Shown here: positions 28,772 to 36,994 of the stretch, piece by piece
How positions within the stretch are numbered: position 1 is the first letter of the stretch
Layout: the number at the start of each line of letters is the position of its first letter
Virus record (IMG/VR): IMGVR_UViG_3300023196_001274
Coordinates: 1 to 37,300 of that record
Origin: a virus
Length of the DNA: 37,300 nucleotides
Reading direction: 5' to 3' (one strand)
Notes under the pieces: model-generated
Database searches by the model: none
What the model was told of the DNA's origin: nothing
What the model saw: only the letters and a program-made list of their open reading frames with translations
Made by a program: the position numbers and the translations under genes

Positions 28772-30490
28772 TTATCCATCGCAAGATAAACAATCAGGAT
28801 CCATAGCTGCCGCGGCAATATCTCCTCTCAGCACAGACTCAGTGCGGACATAGTACAAGGTCTTGATGCCTTTTTTCCACGCTTCCATGTGAACTTGATT
28901 AATCCACTTAGGAGTTGCTTCACTAGGGAAAGCTAAATTCAAGCTAACCGACTGATCCACATACTGTTGCCTTATACCCGCCTGATTAACCAATTCAAGT
29001 TGATTGATTTCTTTAAAAGTTTTGAAAACTTCTTTAGCAGTAACTTCGTGCGCCATTTGTATATTATCCAGCTCACTGATATCCTGAACCGAACCACCGT
29101 CAGCCAGTATTTTATCCCAGATTTCATTTGTATTTAATTTGTGTTTTTTTAAGAGTTTAACTAATGTTGGGTTTTTTCTGATGAACGTGCCCTTCGCGCT
29201 TTGTTCAGTAAATACGTTAGCCGCCCAAGGTTCAATGCCAGGCGATATGTTACCAGACAACTTAGAGTTACTAACAGTGGGCGCGATTGCGCGTAAATGA
29301 GTATTACGTAAGCCAGTACCGACACACCAAAGAGGTTCGCCATAAGTTTCTGCCAAAGCCATTGAGGCTCGTTCGCTTTCAATCTTGAACTGCGAAAAAA
29401 TCTTCCGAGTTTCAAACTGAGCCAGTAAGCCTTCGAAAGGAAGGCCTTTCTCTTGGAGATATGTGTGCCATCCGAGTACTCCCAGTCCCAATGCTCTCCC
29501 GCGTTGCGCAGATCGAACAGCGTTCTCGAACCCACGTAAACCTTTGGCTCTTTGAATAAATTCCTCCATAACTCCATCAAGAAACCAGATAGCGTCATAT
29601 ATAAGGTTAGTGTTCTTCCATTCTTCATATTTTGCTAGATTTAATGATGATAAGCAGCAAACAAAGCTATGATTCTCATCTGTGTGTAATGTAATCTCAC
29701 TACAGATGTTAGTCATATGTACCTTTAGTCCGTTGACTTTATATGCTTGCGGATTTGCTTTATTAGTATTTCCTTTAAATAGTATGTACGGTTCTCCAGT
29801 TGCTTTTCGCTTTCTAAGTAGTTTACTCCATCGATCCCTAGCTCCCGCATCTCCTTGTTCAAGCTTTCGCATAAACTTATCGCCAACAACTGCGCATTGA
29901 TGTAGATTAAGGCTTTGTCTGTTGACGTCCCCTTTAGGTTCTCGTATGTCAAGCCAGTCGAGAAAGTCATCGTGCTCAATGTTAATATTGACTGAAGCAG
30001 CTCCGCGTCGAACTGAGCCTTGATTCGTAGCAAGTATAGTGGAATCATAGATTTTACAAAATGGTACAACACCATCAGATGTGCCGTTGTCTGTTATTTT
30101 AGCGCCAGCGGGTCTGATCATGTTAACACCGATACCAACTCCACCGCCGTGCTTAGCGAGTAGCATCATCTCTAAATTCTTTCCACCGATCTCTTGGATA
30201 CTATCTCCAACATCGATACCAAAGCAACTGATTGGTAGACCACGATCAGTACCTGTATTCGATAACACCGGAGAGGCTAGGCATAGCCAACCTTTCCAGA
30301 TATAATCAAAGAAAACATCTGCTAACTCAGGCTTATAAAGCCTACGAGCGACGCTGCTAGCAACGCGCATATAAGCAGCGCGAGGAGTTTCCCCATAAAG
30401 AAGATAACCTCCAGCGATTGTTTTCTTGTAAACGTCCGTGTTACCCCATTCAGGGTAATCTTCACCCTTGATCCAATCATTATCCCACAT
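28772..30490 (-). CDS. nrdA: Ribonucleotide reductase class I, large subunit
   Basis: A 572-residue NrdA that reduces ribonucleoside diphosphates to dNDPs. The key residues are all visible: C89 (PISCFG, matching E. coli C225), N261/C263/E265 in NICSEITL (N437, C439, E441), C278 or C279 (C462), the radical-transfer pair Y546-Y547 in LYYVRTESV, and the C-terminal redox pair C567 and C570 in DCLSCDG. It is shorter than E. coli NrdA (about 760) because the N-terminal ATP cone that senses dATP is missing, so it probably escapes feedback inhibition. It is the last gene of the leftward operon, 1 base after the tiny membrane peptide gene. After the stop, the same frame continues with a Cys-rich stretch (see findings). 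Confidence 0.93.
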   Translation of the reverse strand: MWDNDWIKGEDYPEWGNTDVYKKTIAGGYLLYGETPRAAYMRVASSVARRLYKPELADVFFDYIWKGWLCLASPVLSNTGTDRGLPISCFGIDVGDSIQEIGGKNLEMMLLAKHGGGVGIGVNMIRPAGAKITDNGTSDGVVPFCKIYDSTILATNQGSVRRGAASVNINIEHDDFLDWLDIREPKGDVNRQSLNLHQCAVVGDKFMRKLEQGDAGARDRWSKLLRKRKATGEPYILFKGNTNKANPQAYKVNGLKVHMTNICSEITLHTDENHSFVCCLSSLNLAKYEEWKNTNLIYDAIWFLDGVMEEFIQRAKGLRGFENAVRSAQRGRALGLGVLGWHTYLQEKGLPFEGLLAQFETRKIFSQFKIESERASMALAETYGEPLWCVGTGLRNTHLRAIAPTVSNSKLSGNISPGIEPWAANVFTEQSAKGTFIRKNPTLVKLLKKHKLNTNEIWDKILADGGSVQDISELDNIQMAHEVTAKEVFKTFKEINQLELVNQAGIRQQYVDQSVSLNLAFPSEATPKWINQVHMEAWKKGIKTLYYVRTESVLRGDIAAAAMDPDCLSCDG

Positions 30491-30578: not shown

Positions 30579-30783
30579 TTTCTTTTTCTTTAGCCTCTTT
30601 AGCTTTTTCGCTTAGTTGAAAAATAGCACCGTCATAACCAGGCATAAGCTTGATAGTCTCAAGCGTGCCAACGGATAAATCCCTTAGGTAAGCGTTTTCA
30701 TCTAGTATTCTCTGCACCACGTTAATGAGTGCTTGAATCTTTTTTTCTTGTAAGTCAGCCTTACTTTGTTTTTGTCCTTTCAT
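30565..30783 (-). CDS. Small coiled-coil protein
   Basis: A 72-residue protein, basic at the start (MKGQKQSKADLQEKKIQ), with a hydrophobic-heptad helix (ALINVVQRILDENAYLRDLS) and a charged end (KAKEAKEKENDSE). A central motif reads VGTLETIKLMPGYDGAIFQL. There is no catalytic motif. It overlaps the upstream dioxygenase gene by 4 bases (ATGA). It might be a small DNA-binding or regulatory partner, but no family is recognised. Confidence 0.7.
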   Translation of the reverse strand: MKGQKQSKADLQEKKIQALINVVQRILDENAYLRDLSVGTLETIKLMPGYDGAIFQLSEKAKEAKEKENDSE

Positions 30784-31346
30784 TTTTTTATTTTATAAAA
30801 CATTACAAACACTACTCTTGGTTCCTTAAATTCATTTGGATACTTGCTATGAAAGTAATTACATGGGTATGATATCAACCTATTTTGCTTATGACCTATT
30901 ATAGATTTCAACTTCCACTTTGACATGTCATTAGAGTCATTTGAAATCATTTCGTTAAACAACTTGACGTTAATTTTCTCATCAAATACTTCTCCATATT
31001 TTTCATGAGACCAAAAAGCAGTTCCGTTTAATTCATTTTCGTTTTCTTTTGAAACATACAAAACCAAAGCTCTATCAGGTTGTTGATTATTTATAATAGA
31101 ATCATTATGAATCCTCCAATCTTTGTCTTGATTTTCTTTAGCTTCTCTAAAAAAACATAATATATTTTCAACTTCTTTGCCCTCTATCTCAGATACTTTA
31201 TTTAAAACTAAATCAATAAAATCTTCAGAAGCATATTTAACCCAAAATGATTTGCCTGGGGTGTCTACTTTTTCAAAAGAACTGCTGTCGTTATTTAATA
31301 TTTTTATTAAATCATCGTCTAAAAAATTATCTTTTATGTAAATCAT
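30780..31346 (-). CDS. 2OG-Fe(II) dioxygenase
   Basis: A 188-residue protein from the ATG at 31346; an upstream TTG at 31352 would overlap the nrdB end further. It shows the full set of the 2-oxoglutarate/Fe(II) dioxygenase family: the HxD iron ligands H80 and D82 in WRIHNDS, the distal H166 in NYFHSKYP, and R177 in EPRVVFVMFY for 2-oxoglutarate binding. Its layout, with a 'GTAFWSHEKYG' segment in the middle, resembles prolyl-4-hydroxylase-like phage enzymes. It hydroxylates or oxidises an unknown substrate, perhaps a protein, or a DNA base or nucleotide. It lies between nrdB and nrdA, with TGATG coupling to nrdB. Because such enzymes need O2, iron and 2OG, it points to an aerobic host. Confidence 0.85.
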   Translation of the reverse strand: MIYIKDNFLDDDLIKILNNDSSSFEKVDTPGKSFWVKYASEDFIDLVLNKVSEIEGKEVENILCFFREAKENQDKDWRIHNDSIINNQQPDRALVLYVSKENENELNGTAFWSHEKYGEVFDEKINVKLFNEMISNDSNDMSKWKLKSIIGHKQNRLISYPCNYFHSKYPNEFKEPRVVFVMFYKIKK

Positions 31347-32314
31347 CACCAAATATCTTCAAAATCCTCACCCTCGCCCGCTTTACTGTAATCCGTAGAC
31401 CTAATAGCAAAGAAATCAGTATGAGTGTGACCGCCAGTGAGATGATAAAACCAATCAAGATTACTGGCAGCAGATCCGTTAAAAACAAAATGCCCAGATA
31501 AATCGGCATAACCAAGTTCCACGAGTTTTTCATTTGCTCTCTTTTTTATAAAATGCTTTAAGTCATTAGCAGATATACCTTCGATATCCCCCATCTCAAA
31601 CATCTTATCAATGTATTTAATCTCGAGATCAACCATTGTCTCAGCCGCTTTGATTATATCAGCCTTGCATAGATGCGCTAGTTGATTGTTCTCTTCGCAC
31701 ATATGGCGAAACAACTGACAGCCCATCTTACTGTGTAATGACTCGTCACGAACGCTCCACTTCATTTGCTGCCCAATACCCTTCAAAAGATTTCTCATTT
31801 GAAAAGAATATAATACAGCAAAAGCGCTATAAAGGCTAACTCCTTCCGCAAAAGCACTAAAAACAGCAAGAGAACGAGCAATTCCAACATGGGATTCCCC
31901 GTCGTATGCCACCAGGTTTTCGAACCTATCAGCCGTTGCAGGCTCGTGTAAAAACGCTTCATAATCTTCTAGTCCTAATGTTTCATTCAAGTAGCTGTAT
32001 GCTACAGCGTGTACTGTCTCTTGGCTACCAAACATCATAGCCATTTGTTTTATCTCATGCTTCGGAAACCAAGATACCACTTTTTGGGTCCAATAATCGG
32101 ACACTGCACATTCTGTCTGAGCGAAGCCAAGTAAAATGTTTCCAACAAGATTTTTTTCTTTTGGGGTAAGTTTTTCATTCCAGTCTTTAATATCTGATTG
32201 CATTGAGATCTCTGTGTGCAGCCAAAATGCCTGCGCCTGCTTTAGCCAACCCTCTGTGTAGTATACTGGATACTCAAAAGGCTTATAAGCTATTCTTTCA
32301 TCAAATAATCCCAT
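31346..32314 (-). CDS. nrdB: Ribonucleotide reductase class I, small subunit
   Basis: A 322-residue NrdB, the di-iron radical subunit that pairs with NrdA. Ligands in order: E68 (FAQTECAVSDYW), E99 and H102 (SQETVHAVAY), E157 (FAEGVSLY), and E191 and H194 (RDESLHSKMG). The radical tyrosine is Y106, four residues after H102, as in E. coli (Y122 after H118). The first ligand is Glu, where E. coli class Ia has Asp84; this is acceptable but notable. The C-terminal end (EGEDFEDIW) is acidic with a terminal Trp, suitable for binding NrdA. Length is close to the family (about 320-375). The stop overlaps the dioxygenase start. Confidence 0.93.
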   Translation of the reverse strand: MGLFDERIAYKPFEYPVYYTEGWLKQAQAFWLHTEISMQSDIKDWNEKLTPKEKNLVGNILLGFAQTECAVSDYWTQKVVSWFPKHEIKQMAMMFGSQETVHAVAYSYLNETLGLEDYEAFLHEPATADRFENLVAYDGESHVGIARSLAVFSAFAEGVSLYSAFAVLYSFQMRNLLKGIGQQMKWSVRDESLHSKMGCQLFRHMCEENNQLAHLCKADIIKAAETMVDLEIKYIDKMFEMGDIEGISANDLKHFIKKRANEKLVELGYADLSGHFVFNGSAASNLDWFYHLTGGHTHTDFFAIRSTDYSKAGEGEDFEDIW

Positions 32315-32752: not shown

Positions 32753-32918
32753 AACATTTGATATTATATTTATCCTGTATCTCTACAAGTTCACTGAACT
32801 TGACTTTGCCTCTAGTCATCATAGACCATTTAACCCATTTGTCGATCTGGCGCTCGACGTATTTTTGTCTAGCTAATTTCTTCGAGTTAGCTGGATCATG
32901 TCGATTGTTTTGTCGCAT
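32745..32918 (-). CDS. Small basic helical protein
   Basis: A 57-residue frame, ATG at 32918, TAA at 32745-32747. MRQNNRHDPANSKKLARQKY is followed by VERQIDKWVKWSMMTRGKVK, then FSELVEIQDKYNIKCYG. It is helical and positively charged. It overlaps the end of the upstream nuclease gene by 46 bases and the start of the next small gene by 8. Good amphipathic pattern and consistent coupling argue for a real gene. Function unknown. Confidence 0.58.
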   Translation of the reverse strand: MRQNNRHDPANSKKLARQKYVERQIDKWVKWSMMTRGKVKFSELVEIQDKYNIKCYG

Positions 32919-33319
32919 TCTGTTTGATTTTGTGGTTTATATAATACCCTATTGTCACTATTATCGTGCATCCATTTTTTAAACATCTTCCAACGTAGTG
33001 GAAATGATTCGTTGGCTCGACCCTTGCATTCTATAATAAAGTCTTCACCAATAAAATCTGGAGTGTATTTGATGTTAAGTATTTTCTTGCAACCTCTGTT
33101 TCTGTATTCCCCCTTGCCGTTGGACTGTCTCTCGATAGATTCACTAGCGAACTCAAAAGCAGGTAGTAGCTCAAATGTTTGACCTTCGTAGTCAGCTTTG
33201 ATCTTAGCTTTTTTTAAGGCCATATACATATATCTCTCAAGACCGGAAGCAAAGTTGATCCCATCATATGTTATCCGCTTTGCCCGTACTGGTCCTTTTT
33301 TTTTAGATCTCTTTTTCAT
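32873..33319 (-). CDS. PD-(D/E)xK nuclease, DUF1064-like
   Basis: A 148-residue nuclease of the PD-(D/E)xK fold. Visible active residues: E28 in ASGLERYMYM, P87-D88 in YTPDFI, and E97-C-K99 in FIIECKGR, then LRWKMFKKW. This arrangement matches phage proteins of the DUF1064 type, thought to act as endonucleases or Holliday-junction resolvases in replication or packaging. The first 16 residues are highly basic (MKKRSKKKGPVRAKR), useful for DNA binding. It overlaps both neighbours slightly. Within the replication operon it most likely resolves branched DNA before packaging. Confidence 0.83.
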   Translation of the reverse strand: MKKRSKKKGPVRAKRITYDGINFASGLERYMYMALKKAKIKADYEGQTFELLPAFEFASESIERQSNGKGEYRNRGCKKILNIKYTPDFIGEDFIIECKGRANESFPLRWKMFKKWMHDNSDNRVLYKPQNQTECDKTIDMIQLTRRN

Positions 33320-33596
33320 TGTTCACGTCAAGAATATCTAAGTCTATGAATTTATTAATTAATGCTTCTTCGGTTAGATCATGGATCTCTTCCTTAGCAG
33401 CTTGAATATATAACACTGCATCCATTAATTCTTCTTGAACGTCATTAAGGTATTTGAACAAACCTTTGAGCTTTGTGGTACGTTCCTCGTGTAATGTTGT
33501 GCCATACTTGGCGTAGCCAACATTTGATCTTGATACGAATTTCTCAACAACTCGTTCAACAACAGGGTCTCTAAATACTATTGATTTTTTTATCAT
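33303..33596 (-). CDS. MazG-like nucleotide pyrophosphohydrolase family
   Basis: A 97-residue protein with a short all-helical MazG-type pattern: YAKYGTTLHEERTTKLKGLF, then YLNDVQEELMDAVLYIQAAK. The EExxD spacing (EELMDA) and the preceding acidic residues are those of small phage dATP/dGTP or dUTP pyrophosphohydrolase relatives. MazG-type enzymes convert NTPs or (p)ppGpp to monophosphates. It overlaps by 4 bases the end of the GIY-YIG/MazG fusion gene. Two MazG-like proteins side by side is unusual. The family is probable; the substrate unknown. Confidence 0.68.
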   Translation of the reverse strand: MIKKSIVFRDPVVERVVEKFVSRSNVGYAKYGTTLHEERTTKLKGLFKYLNDVQEELMDAVLYIQAAKEEIHDLTEEALINKFIDLDILDVNNEKEI

Positions 33597-34396
33597 AACG
33601 TTACTTTTTTCCAGTGATCAGTAGTTCCGCTTGGGAATGACTGCTGTTTTACGAACGTTCCGTTAACCATACTACCTTGCCTAGATTTAATTACATTGTA
33701 GGCAGATTCAATACAGTCTTCTATATTATGACCTCTTAGTTTAGCTAAGTTAGTTAAAACAACAACCATGTCGCCAATAGCGTCTATAACTTCTGGTTCA
33801 TCATTTTTAAGTATAGCTTGAGCTAACTCACCAGCTTCTTCCATTAATTTAATATACTGAGTTCTAGCGTCACCAGATTTATATATACCTTTTTCAGTGG
33901 CCCAATCTCTAATATTGTCGTAAATATTAACAAATGTTTGATCATCTAAGAAAGCTTCGTGAAAAGCTTTGTTATAGACATAACAGCGGTCTCTATCGTA
34001 CATCGACACCTTGGCATTGGATAAAATCCAGGGGATATTTTCGTCAGTGATTTCAAACTCTAGGCCATCAGGCGTTTGCCATGATAAGCCCTTGAGATCC
34101 ATTAACCTGCCTTTAAGTTTGTTAAGCGGGCATGGAAACGTGGTAGTAGCTTCTGTTGCTCTTGGTAACATTGGGTTTGGGTTTTTATTAAACAAATTTT
34201 TATATAATTTTCTGTCTACTTTATACCCGTATAAAAATTGAAGCTCTAACTCCTTGCGTGAAACGTAATCAATGTCAACGCTAGAATCTAGAACTTCATA
34301 TTCTCCCTTCTTGTATCCTTGCGTTACAGTAACCCGTTTATTAAGATCACGTGTGACCCCAATCTTTTTACCTGGTATGTGATAAATATAATACAT
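33593..34396 (-). CDS. GIY-YIG-like plus MazG fusion protein
   Basis: A 267-residue protein with two parts. Residues 1-60 resemble a GIY-YIG nuclease: YYIYHIPGKKIGVTRDLNKR with R16, and a later Glu (E49 or E51 in SRKELELQF) at the place of the catalytic Glu. GIY-YIG proteins cut DNA. Residues 170-240 are a MazG pyrophosphohydrolase domain: KLMEEAGELAQAIL (E187, E190), then EPEVIDAIGDMVVVLTN (E202, D205, D209). Between lies a linker (FNKNPNPMLPRATEATTTF) and a small domain. I recall a similar fusion in marine phages. The gene starts 5 bases after the ThyA-like stop. What joins these activities is unknown: nucleotide clean-up linked to host DNA degradation is one possibility. Confidence 0.75.
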   Translation of the reverse strand: MYYIYHIPGKKIGVTRDLNKRVTVTQGYKKGEYEVLDSSVDIDYVSRKELELQFLYGYKVDRKLYKNLFNKNPNPMLPRATEATTTFPCPLNKLKGRLMDLKGLSWQTPDGLEFEITDENIPWILSNAKVSMYDRDRCYVYNKAFHEAFLDDQTFVNIYDNIRDWATEKGIYKSGDARTQYIKLMEEAGELAQAILKNDEPEVIDAIGDMVVVLTNLAKLRGHNIEDCIESAYNVIKSRQGSMVNGTFVKQQSFPSGTTDHWKKVTL

Positions 34397-34401
34397 TTTT
34401 C

Positions 34402-35049
34402 TTAAAGTTTATTGTTATATAAGTGTAAGTTATTCGCAAAATGATAATAAGTTCCTACGCCGATAGAAAGCCTGTCTGCAACCATCTGCTGCAGCATTGA
34501 AAAACAGTACTGATCATTGCAGAAACCGTACCAGAGGTCGTTAGAACGCATCATGACGGACATATTAAGCTTTTCATCTAAGATATAAAAATGTATAGCA
34601 TAAGTACATGGCGTATCACTATTATATTTAATAAACTCTTTGCCGTCGAATATAGATATTGAAGCTTGTCTACTCTCAGAATTTTTCTTAAGCTTGTTGA
34701 TAGCAATATCTAATTGATAGTCTCTGTTCCATTGCCATCCGTAATTAGACATGACCATTCCAGCTTGGTTAGCCATCTTCTTCCAGATACCAGGTATCTT
34801 ACCGTATATCTCACCTAGCTTCTTCAAGCTATTGTCTCCAGATAGATACCACAGCCACTCAGCTTGAGCATATGCGTGGTTCCAAGCTCTTGTTCTGTGA
34901 ACAATATGATTGTCCATAGGATTTTCTATTTCAAAACCTACATTAAACAAAGCTTTGGTATCGCCAAATTTAACCCCAGTATTTCTGATAACCTCGTTGA
35001 AGTATTCAAAAGCATCTGTGGCGTTTTCAAATTTATTTTTTAGTTCCAT
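34402..35049 (-). CDS. ThyA-family dNMP (hydroxy)methylase
   Basis: A 215-residue enzyme of the thymidylate synthase fold. Catalytic C148 (DTPCTYAIHFYI) and the phosphate-binding R168-S169 align with E. coli C146, R166 and S167 at a constant offset of two, as do H209 and Y211 (HLY) with H207 and Y209. At the position of N177, which selects dUMP, there is D179 (GFCNDQY). As I recall, T4 dCMP hydroxymethylase also has Asp there, so dCMP may be the substrate and the product methyl- or hydroxymethyl-dCMP. The C-terminus ends four residues after HLY, about 50 shorter than E. coli, so the closing segment is missing. Overlaps upstream gene by 17 bases. Confidence 0.83.
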   Translation of the reverse strand: MELKNKFENATDAFEYFNEVIRNTGVKFGDTKALFNVGFEIENPMDNHIVHRTRAWNHAYAQAEWLWYLSGDNSLKKLGEIYGKIPGIWKKMANQAGMVMSNYGWQWNRDYQLDIAINKLKKNSESRQASISIFDGKEFIKYNSDTPCTYAIHFYILDEKLNMSVMMRSNDLWYGFCNDQYCFSMLQQMVADRLSIGVGTYYHFANNLHLYNNKL

Positions 35050-35272
35050 ATTTGTTATAATAGTATAAATAATACTCGTTCATTTTGTCGTCAATATCAG
35101 ACTTAAGATAGCTATCTGGGCTTTTGTGTTTCTTACCATTAAACTCTATAATTATATACCAAGCACCGGGTTTCGGGCCTCTAGCTATAGGGCTAGGATA
35201 TATTTTAATATTGTTGTGGATACACCAATAAAAAGCTTGAAACTCGCTTTCTTCGTCTTTATAACTACCCAT
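35033..35272 (-). CDS. Small hypothetical protein
   Basis: A 79-residue protein. Strand-like segment GAWYIIIEFNGKKHKS sits between a polar, aromatic N-terminus (DEESEFQAFYWCIHNNIKIY) and a helical end (SDIDDKMNEYYLYYYNKYG). It lies between the primase-helicase (directly abutting) and the ThyA-like gene (17-base overlap). No known family is recognised; it may be a small partner of the replication proteins. Confidence 0.68.
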   Translation of the reverse strand: MGSYKDEESEFQAFYWCIHNNIKIYPSPIARGPKPGAWYIIIEFNGKKHKSPDSYLKSDIDDKMNEYYLYYYNKYGTKK

Positions 35273-36994
35273 CTATAGTTCCCATGGCATTTTTTCGCTA
35301 TCACCTATTTGCAGTTGCTCGTGTGGTACAAAGCAACCAGATTTATGCTCCCATTTAAAATGAGCTTCAGCTCCATTCTCTCCAAGGTTTTGGAATTTAA
35401 CCTTAAGTACTTTAGCCTTAACAGTTTTAGCCTCATAATCCCTGTGGATCAATAGCCCGTGATATGAAGCATCATACCACTCACCACCGCCCTTGATGTT
35501 ATACATGTTTGGTTCTTCAATTTTACCGTCTTTGTCCTTATACATCTTAGTAGGGTGAGCAACAACAATAACAAGCACATCATATTTCTTAGCAAATATT
35601 TCTATTTTACTTAGATACTCTAACGTATAAACGTTAACATCACCTGAAGCATCCTGTGCTCGTACCTTGTTGAAGGGGTCAATAACCAAACACTTGATAC
35701 CCTTGCGTTTAACTAGTTCAGCGCCTTTGCGTAAAACAGCATCCAATGTGTAACGTTCCATATCAATGAAGAAGAAATTGCTATTAACGTGATCCGCAAT
35801 CTGATTCCATTTATCAGTGTGTATATCTTCAGCTGTTGGCATATCTTGCCATACCTTACGCATCAGCTTATGAGCATGTAAATATGTTGGTTGGTTTTCT
35901 GGGGAAGCATATGCTGTTTTCCAGTCATAATTTTGGTTATAACCAATAACCATTTGGTCTACGAAATCTGATTTACCAGAGCTTGGAATGCCAGTAACAG
36001 TAATGAATTGGCCAGTATAAGTAGAAAAGATGCTATCAAAATTGGCCAAACCCACTTGATAGCCAGGTTTGAAACCGTTTCGGACAAAGTCCGTGACTTC
36101 GTCTTCAACATCTTTGAACGTCGTAACATTTTCGAGTGGCACCGGTCTTGCTCCGGTAATACGCTGCGCCAGTTTTTCTTTTCCATATTTTAATAAGTAT
36201 TCGTTTGCATCTTTACAGTCTTCAAAGCTAGCTAAATAACAGGTCTCAGAACCTAGTCGTCTGACTAACTCTGACTGTAATGCTTGCCCAGCTTCATCTG
36301 AATCAACAGCAATGATTATTTTTTCTTTGCCCTCAAAATAATCAATGCAGTTGTCCAGGTATTCTAAATTGTTGGTGTTTAATGTAGCACCGTTTGGTAC
36401 CGATATAACATTAGTTATTCCGGCCTCGTGTATAGCAAGGACATCCATTTCGCCCTCTACTATAACACAGTAGTCAAAACCAACAATACTATTAATATTA
36501 TAGAAGACTTTCTCAGCCCCCTTATATAATTTAAAGTTCTTTCTTCCATCACGATACTTAATATTAATAAGTTGATCGCCCATGAAATAATTAAACTTTA
36601 TGACATTCTCGGTTTTACCGGTTTGAGGCATATACTCAGGACTGTTGCTAATACCTAAACTAGCAACAGTCTCTTGAGATATTCCTCTTGTAGCAAACCA
36701 TCCCAGTACTTTTACGTCAACACTGTTAGTTAGTGTGGGAACTTCAGGTCGAACATATTCTTTTTCTGAAGCACCCTTGCGTTGGTAAGTGTGTAACTGG
36801 AATGACTTATTACAATTGTGGCAAGTTCCGAGACCACGTTCCCAATCATAAGAAGCACATTTAGCTTTTACGTTCTTGGGTTTTCTATCAGGTGAACACA
36901 AGGGGCAGATTCCTTGTTTTTGTCCAGCTTCTAGATCGTGTTGATTGAACTTATCAATCAAGAAACCATTGATCTCTGTATTGTTTACTTGCAT
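35273..36994 (-). CDS. Primase-helicase, T7 gp4-like
   Basis: A 573-residue fused primase and replicative helicase. The N-terminal zinc finger has C30, C33, C58 and C61 (CPLC, CHNC). The Toprim primase core has E180 in VIVEGEMD and the acidic pair D231/D233 in IAVDSDEAG. A linker joins it to a RecA-like DnaB-family helicase with Walker A GIPSSGKS (335-342), Walker B LVIDP (D439), and H480 in VIVVAHPTK, then GGGEWYDASYHGLL. Size matches T7 gp4 (566 residues). It unwinds DNA at the fork and makes primers. No DNA polymerase lies in the window; it should be beyond 37300. An AT-only leader precedes it on the minus strand. Confidence 0.93.
   Translation of the reverse strand: MQVNNTEINGFLIDKFNQHDLEAGQKQGICPLCSPDRKPKNVKAKCASYDWERGLGTCHNCNKSFQLHTYQRKGASEKEYVRPEVPTLTNSVDVKVLGWFATRGISQETVASLGISNSPEYMPQTGKTENVIKFNYFMGDQLINIKYRDGRKNFKLYKGAEKVFYNINSIVGFDYCVIVEGEMDVLAIHEAGITNVISVPNGATLNTNNLEYLDNCIDYFEGKEKIIIAVDSDEAGQALQSELVRRLGSETCYLASFEDCKDANEYLLKYGKEKLAQRITGARPVPLENVTTFKDVEDEVTDFVRNGFKPGYQVGLANFDSIFSTYTGQFITVTGIPSSGKSDFVDQMVIGYNQNYDWKTAYASPENQPTYLHAHKLMRKVWQDMPTAEDIHTDKWNQIADHVNSNFFFIDMERYTLDAVLRKGAELVKRKGIKCLVIDPFNKVRAQDASGDVNVYTLEYLSKIEIFAKKYDVLVIVVAHPTKMYKDKDGKIEEPNMYNIKGGGEWYDASYHGLLIHRDYEAKTVKAKVLKVKFQNLGENGAEAHFKWEHKSGCFVPHEQLQIGDSEKMPWEL

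Follow-up and report, generated by a model that had tools for sequence, protein, structure and literature searches.

A 215-aa protein encoded by a marine phage is very probably a T4-type dCMP 5-hydroxymethylase of compact, tail-less build, as predicted from its residues and modeled fold. The window (the whole stretch of DNA that was analyzed, a 37,300-base phage entry of IMG/VR) is linear and probably incomplete. Judged by the published signature residues, the protein counts as a dCMP hydroxymethylase, here with unusual, lean genomic surroundings (Table 1). Its family, fold, alignment register, active-site residues, conservation, and gene order are established computationally, as is a genomic slot in which every readable gene has Asp at the cytosine site. 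The actual substrate and product we infer, and by our own estimate cytosine is almost certainly the substrate. Pfam, PHROGs, and NCBIfam all assigned the protein to the thymidylate synthase (TS) family, with the NCBIfam thymidylate synthase cut-off lying far above its score (best 79 bits vs. 327). In a sequence search against PDB, the CMP hydroxymethylase MilA (78 bits) ranked above T4 dCMP hydroxymethylase (66 bits) and E. coli ThyA (51 bits). The AlphaFold2 model of the protein had a mean pLDDT of 93.3.

Table 1. Coordinates of the genes and active-site codons discussed, given as positions in the window
Feature	Position	Strand	Evidence
TS-family gene, predicted dCMP 5-hydroxymethylase, 215 aa	34402..35049	(-)	PF00303, E 1.4e-24; PDB sequence matches; residue table
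Asp179 codon (ThyA Asn177 / T4 Asp179), cytosine-selecting residue	34513..34515	(-)	Alignment; Asp in 88/88 family rows
Cys148 codon, catalytic nucleophile	34606..34608	(-)	Alignment; kept in 88/88
Asp145 codon (T4 Asp145; ThyA Leu143), water-activating signature residue	34615..34617	(-)	D..CT in 88/88; role according to the available part of PMC6400193
TOPRIM primase / DnaB-like helicase, upstream edge of the slot	35273..36994	(-)	Domain matches; upstream in 50/50 loci with room
79-aa ORF between helicase and TS-family gene, overlapping the start of the latter by 17 bases	35033..35272	(-)	
N-terminal domain (GIY-YIG-like by eye) + MazG domain, candidate dCTP/dNTP pyrophosphatase	33593..34396	(-)	PF03819 9.2e-7, PF01503 3.5e-5
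97-aa conserved ORF after the MazG gene	33303..33596	(-)	59/59 loci with 7.5 kb downstream
Holliday-junction-resolvase-like / DUF1064 nuclease	32873..33319	(-)	Domain matches; 59/59 loci
NrdB, class I ribonucleotide reductase small subunit	31346..32314	(-)	PF00268 1.8e-58; 45/59 loci
NrdA, ribonucleotide reductase large subunit	28772..30490	(-)	PF02867 8.6e-92; 45/59 loci

The initial annotation had read a gap-free alignment to ThyA that puts Asp179 on Asn177, and the MAFFT alignment agreed, with no one-sided gap between Cys148–Tyr211 of the window protein and Cys146–Tyr209 of ThyA. Its statement that T4 dCMP hydroxymethylase has Asp at the same place was correct: the stretch from Cys148 to Asp179 was gap-free against gp42 with Asp179 falling on Asp179, and HMMER paired these residues likewise. 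No gap placing Asn178 on the key site was needed, and T4 itself carries Asn178-Asp179 in register. CampHawk, SS9, CN2, and Molly have Asn at the key site but one extra residue, and a register error with Asn178 at this site was rejected. The chain, noted earlier to be about 50 residues short, ends 4 residues after Tyr211, compared with 55 after Tyr209 in ThyA and 28 after Tyr218 in T4 gp42. A frameshift or pseudogene as the source of the early stop was ruled out, since all 80 fetched loci, read to the stop codon, terminate at the same place to within a few residues.

In total, 516 contig stretches encoded relatives of the protein. Family rows (n = 88) comprised the window, the 80 loci, and seven stretches from MAG contigs. 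Invariant in 88/88 were Y56, E60, W82, SNYG, D..CT, C148, T149, MRSND (R168-S169-N170-D171), D179, H216, and Y218 (T4 numbering); conservation of D145 was counted by the D..CT motif, positions 144–145 being misplaced in the column alignment. Met occupied position 85 in 87 of the 88 rows. MAG labels of the relatives included Flavobacteriaceae, Saprospiraceae, and Sphingobacteriaceae, but also Aliivibrio and Halieaceae; Bacteroidota are the likely hosts of the carrier phages. One record (G037) carries two PF00303 genes.

Two residues act as a switch code across the family: D145 with D179 in T4, MilA, and VPE25, D145 with N179 in CampHawk, SS9, and CN2, and L143 with N177 in ThyA. Phages of the CampHawk and SS9 types presumably contain 5hmU, and the hallmark of dUMP hydroxymethylases of 5hmU phages, Asn at the 179 site, was absent from the window protein in the residue alignment. 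The ThyA hallmarks Asn177, Leu143, and the C-terminal tail were likewise all absent, and Met stands at the Trp83 site of ThyA, so that the bulky Trp is missing. According to the available part of the T4 ternary-complex paper, Asp145 together with Ser94-x-Tyr96 is the signature of hydroxymethylation, with Asp145 activating water, while Asp179 selects cytosine and the missing tail is the main structural difference from ThyA (PMC6400193). In the window protein, Asp145 lies three residues before the catalytic Cys (D145-T-P-C148), Ser101-Asn102-Tyr103 corresponds to T4 Ser94-x-Tyr96, and Glu64 corresponds to T4 Glu60. The MetaGPA study found that Asp177 and residue 147 mark contigs of cytosine-modified phages, with PRA-PH co-occurring (PMC8670742); at this second diagnostic position, 147, Thr is present in T4 as in the window protein. 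Together, Asp179, Asp145, the Ser94-x-Tyr96 signature, and this Thr support the proposal of the initial annotation that the gene is a candidate dCMP hydroxymethylase. Among 30 active-site and neighboring positions, 24 were identical to the window protein in T4 gp42, 13 in ThyA, and 11 in the dCMP hydroxylase AfhB.

Preference for deoxyribose is suggested by Ser169 and Arg123, both present in the window protein. The ribose switches of MilA lie at the equivalent sites, and Ser with Arg is the deoxy state, as far as described in the accessible text of PMC5175136; the hallmarks of a MilA-type CMP hydroxymethylase, Ala at the 169 site and Lys at the 123 site, were absent. Several ligand contacts seen in T4, all outside the published signature, are not kept: Arg177, Arg220, Lys28 (THF), and Arg124 (phosphate). 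They are replaced by C or A at 177, by N, D, K, or E at 220, and by Q, H, or K at 124 in 87/88 rows; V85 of T4 is Met in the window family, and the Lys28 site was unaligned. The pair R-Q at 123–124 was found in SS9 and CampHawk too.

For the chemistry of the enzyme, we follow what has been published for T4, MilA, and ThyA. By this analogy, Cys148 would attack C6 of dCMP, with the cytosine held and protonated by Asp179 and dUMP disfavored. A one-carbon unit from methylene-tetrahydrofolate would be activated through Glu64. Water, not hydride, would then be brought in by Asp145 with Ser101-x-Tyr103 to give 5-hydroxymethyl-dCMP, in a site that would be open to water without the ThyA tail, as in T4. 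Deoxynucleotides would be provided by ribonucleotide reductase (RNR), and the adjoining MazG-type enzyme probably converts dCTP to dCMP, which would both supply the substrate and remove plain C. Host kinases would raise hm-dCMP to hm-dCTP, the host replisome would insert it into phage DNA, and hm-dC there may block restriction at C-containing sites. By our own estimate, hmC is rather likely to be present in virion DNA.

The MazG fusion was the next window-homologous gene, within 360 bases, in all 77 loci with room for it. Its E-E-x-x-E and D-x-I-G-D residues are conserved, and it is a candidate dCTP pyrophosphatase. The model of this protein had a pLDDT of 87 and a pTM of 0.43; plausible matches to known structures were obtained for the MazG part only and were weak, DCTPP1 among them. 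Its N-terminal domain, GIY-YIG-looking and conserved, is followed by a middle domain. Homologues of NrdA and NrdB were missing from 14/59 loci, and one relative, G048, has a class II-like (B12) RNR instead (L100:5090-6283). Between NrdB and NrdA lies a 190-aa ORF (30780-31352, minus strand) with an H-x-D...H...R pattern by eye, like that of 2-oxoglutarate/Fe(II) oxygenases; it matched Pfam DUF6445 below the cut-off only and had zero matches in five relatives, and a TET-like action of its product on hmC would be a bare guess.

The relatives (30–31 records, e.g., G001, G003, G008, G016, and G048) are approximately 70 kb phages with genes of primase/helicase, ERF annealing protein, exonuclease VIII-like protein, and sigma factor. 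G016 has, in addition, genes of an ATP-dependent DNA ligase, a cytidylyltransferase, and a DAHP-synthetase-family protein (L098:7378-8217, L099:996-2939), perhaps a sugar pathway. T4 supplies its own kinase, gp1, and the T-even phages, the best-known cytosine-substituted phages, encode a polymerase, a kinase, and sugar transferases themselves. None of these helpers was found in the relatives. The DNMK nucleotide kinase (PF21448) was detected in 0/31 records by a profile that does match in T4 (control), and a glucosyltransferase in 0/31 by PF09198, which covers the T4 type only and matched in four of the seven named phages used as control. Carbamoyltransferase was absent from 31 records, DNA polymerase A or B from 30–31, and ThyX from 30; overall, PF09198, PF21448, PF02543, PF00476, PF00136, and PF02511 gave zero matches in 30–31 records, some of which are perhaps fragments. 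Among early-strand genes of the window and of five near-complete relatives, the helicase was the sole enzyme seen with a Walker-A motif (G/A-x4-G-K-S/T), the remaining motif matches being in non-enzyme-like or unrelated ORFs. Since no phage polymerase or kinase was found, the host replisome and, if hm-dC enters DNA, host kinases are apparently used. This reliance on the host is the weakest link of the pathway.

The small set of helpers allows another reading, to which we give a low but appreciable probability: 5-hydroxymethyl-dCMP is made, but without useful replacement of C in DNA (a pool effect or low incorporation), no phage kinase being at hand. It keeps the enzyme assignment, and the pathway alone differs. 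The near-complete relatives, which have no recognizable nucleotide kinase, DNA polymerase, or sugar transferase, favor it; the persistence of the Asp enzyme in its slot beside the MazG gene and the weak avoidance of C-palindromes in carriers speak against it. The mean observed/expected ratio of C-containing 4-mer palindromes was 0.924 (0.880–0.989) in carriers (n = 13), 0.692 (0.551–0.968) in sister non-carriers (n = 8), and 0.744 in four named isolates lacking TS genes (Mann–Whitney, carriers vs. sisters, p = 0.0025; vs. sisters and isolates, p = 0.0004), a contrast of a single carrier clade with other phages, across unmatched hosts. AT-only 4-mers shifted likewise (carriers 0.990 vs. 0.928) and AT-only 6-mers in the opposite direction (0.886 vs. 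0.964). Values obtained later, which do not make a clean control, were 0.949 for a hydroxymethyl-type phage (G073) and 0.874 for a methyl-type one (G074), and 0.928 and 0.918 for two fragments without slot coverage (G075 and G076). No TS-family gene was present in 24/24 sister-type records examined. The weaker avoidance in carriers agrees with protected cytosines, though confounded by clade, and the modified cytosine may protect phage DNA from restriction. One non-carrier sister without a TS-family gene, G067, was as unbiased as the carriers (0.968) and may have other protection.

As to the enzyme itself, comparison of the model with known structures gave Z scores of 24.7 for MilA, 24.4 (9iqc) and 23.8 (9iqu) for AfhB, 21.6 for T4, and 20.9 for ThyA; rows with a Z difference below 1 (MilA and AfhB) were treated as tied. 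An AfhB-type FAD-dependent dCMP 5-hydroxylase, as in Mosigvirus-like phages, would give 5-hydroxy-dCMP without folate. It was weighed seriously because the structure comparison placed it above T4, and AfhB too is short and has Asp179. The PDB titles of 9iqc and 9iqu name a riboflavin/FAD-dependent monooxygenase with dCMP and the phage HY126 dCMP hydroxylase AfhB, although the AfhB entry carried the label thymidylate synthase in the sequence search; a protein of Shigella phage JK45 is nearly identical to AfhB (536 bits to 9iqc). A 2026 paper describes, in its available portion, a 5-hodCMP synthase as a TS homologue with a different activity (PMC13390438). AfhB (PDB 9iqc, 9iqu, 9ir2) shares with the window protein the TS fold, the short C-terminus, Asp179, and the cytosine substrate, but has its own states E145, N171, F218, T94-F95, and V175 and lacks Trp82, whereas D145, D171, Y218, S-N, G175, and W82 are found in the window family just as in T4. 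Asn171 and Phe218 of AfhB stand where folate-using members have Asp and Tyr. None of E145, N171, F218, and T94-F95 occurs in the window protein, by a comparison made here rather than by a published definition. The two are 21.7% identical, and AfhB matches at less than half as many of the compared positions as T4. No arabinose or chorismate genes, as found beside AfhB-type genes, were seen in the window operon. On its residues AfhB was set aside, and we regard its chemistry as improbable for the window protein.

A tree of 39 rows, from which BF486P2_long was omitted, placed the window family sister to the T4 gp42 group (support 91/80, not starred). In AU tests, alternative groupings with AfhB (p = 0.047) and VPE25 (p = 0.049) were both marginally rejected, and that with MilA was rejected at p = 0.007. 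Overall identity of the window protein was 36% to VPE25, 33% to MilA, and 27% to T4. T4 gp42 (PDB 1b49, 1b5e, 6a9a) shares Asp179, Asp145, Ser94-Asn95-Tyr96, Glu60, Ile81, Trp82, Arg123, Thr149, Ser169, Asn170, Asp171, His216, and Tyr218 and lacks the ThyA tail; the window chain differs in being 24 residues shorter after Tyr218 and in the loss of Arg124, Arg177, and Arg220, and the window-related phages in that the kinase, polymerase, and glucosyltransferase of T4 were not found. MilA (PDB 5b6d, 5jnh), the best match in sequence and fold, shares D145 and D179 but has Ala176 and Lys133 for ribose where the window protein has Ser and Arg. Unlike the window protein, MilA bears an extra C-terminal helical domain, according to the accessible text of its description (PMC5175136).

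Among isolates, the closest enzyme was the deoxycytidylate 5-hydroxymethyltransferase of Bacteroides phage BF486P2 (OP172667), with 48.8% identity, the same signature, and 13 more C-terminal residues. This phage has a second TS-family gene (L082:17156-17917) with D145 and D179 but Leu at Glu60, possibly a divergent or inactive partner. The TS-family enzymes of VPE25 and ATCCB, the next-closest named relatives (35–36% identity), have D145, D179, and S-x-Y in common with the window protein; they differ in their long C-terminus and in their neighbors, which include a nearby T4-type beta-glucosyltransferase gene and, upstream, a P-loop-like gene.

The position of the gene gave evidence from outside its sequence. 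A census was anchored on the 80 nearest helicase loci, so as not to select on the TS gene, and the next gene was read. The slot between helicase and MazG held a short hydroxymethylase-type enzyme in 46 loci and a full-length ThyA-type enzyme in 33, and was cut by the contig end in one. Asp was present at the cytosine site in 79/79 readable slots, from three TS lineages. All 33 full-length enzymes (28 distinct sequences; L426 represented by its C-terminal 156 residues only) had Leu143, Asp177, and a ThyA-like C-terminus. They formed two lineages, one of them beside Asn-type ThyA (95/87) and both separate from the hydroxymethylases (100/99). Mapped onto the helicase tree, the hydroxymethyl label changed at least nine times, six of these changes being forced by well-supported branches.

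The full-length enzymes (G074 and L348 type) share with the window protein the Asp at the cytosine site and a MazG/pyrophosphohydrolase neighbor, and differ in Leu143 and the longer C-terminus; by their residues, those of G074 (L339:3402-4190) and of loci L348-L426 are predicted dCMP methylases. Similar to them is the thymidylate synthase of AXL1, the sequence used here for the Xp12 type, with Asp177, Asn (no Asp) at 143, a longer C-terminus, and a neighbor of this MazG/pyrophosphohydrolase kind, also a predicted dCMP methylase; AXL1 is related to the 5-methylcytosine phage Xp12, according to the available part of PMC9206674. The window protein could in principle likewise yield 5-methyl-dCMP, for the change of Asn177 to Asp lets ThyA methylate dCMP (cited in PMC8670742), and such ThyA-like Asp enzymes occupy the slot in 33 of 79 relatives. 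Asp145 in place of Leu143, Met in place of Trp83, and the absence of the tail with which ThyA closes for hydride transfer make this outcome improbable for the window protein itself, the full-length slot enzymes having Leu143 and the tail throughout. Of the two modified bases named in the initial annotation, 5-hydroxymethylcytosine is thus the one supported for the window protein, and 5-methylcytosine is predicted for phages with the other slot enzymes. An ordinary thymidylate synthase supplying dTMP, which the database labels and the lack of any other visible dTMP maker such as ThyX might suggest, was ruled out by Asp at the Asn177 site in all 88 family rows and all 79 slots whatever the TS lineage, by Asp145, by the missing tail, and by scores far under the NCBIfam cut-offs, and we leave it only a negligible probability.

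The retention of Asp through many replacements in the slot is support, independent of the gene's own sequence, for the cytosine reading of the predicted hydroxymethylase, and it leads to a prediction of 5mC for the other phages of the group. Swapping of the slot gene, with every replacement read being set for cytosine, suggests that the DNA of these viruses has its cytosines disguised. We see about an even chance that the slot is interchangeable for cytosine modification, so that relatives alternate between 5hmC and 5mC genomes by means of host kinases and replisome, perhaps selected by modification-dependent host defenses. The new elements here are the slot census and the occurrence of hydroxymethylase-type and ThyA-type enzymes in one position, all with Asp at the cytosine site; no published account of such a slot was found in a literature search that only brushed this question, nor was a description of this phage group found. 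This shorter enzyme, with far fewer helpers than in T-even phages, is carried by hundreds of phage contigs, most of them marine and probably from phages of Bacteroidota. If the assignment is true, modified cytosine would be widespread among ocean phages, with consequences for long-read and bisulfite-type assays of viral DNA, and the group would be a natural experiment on the choice between 5hmC and 5mC. It also becomes possible to test whether the CMP kinases and the replicative polymerase of the host handle hm-dC nucleotides.

Full-length enzymes with Asp177 also occur outside the slot, as seen in the uncultured phage MedDCM-OCT-S28-C10 (L428), a marine T7-like phage unrelated to the window. 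Its "thyA" has Asp177 and adjoins genes of dTMP kinase (thymidylate kinase), dCMP deaminase, and NTP pyrophosphohydrolase.
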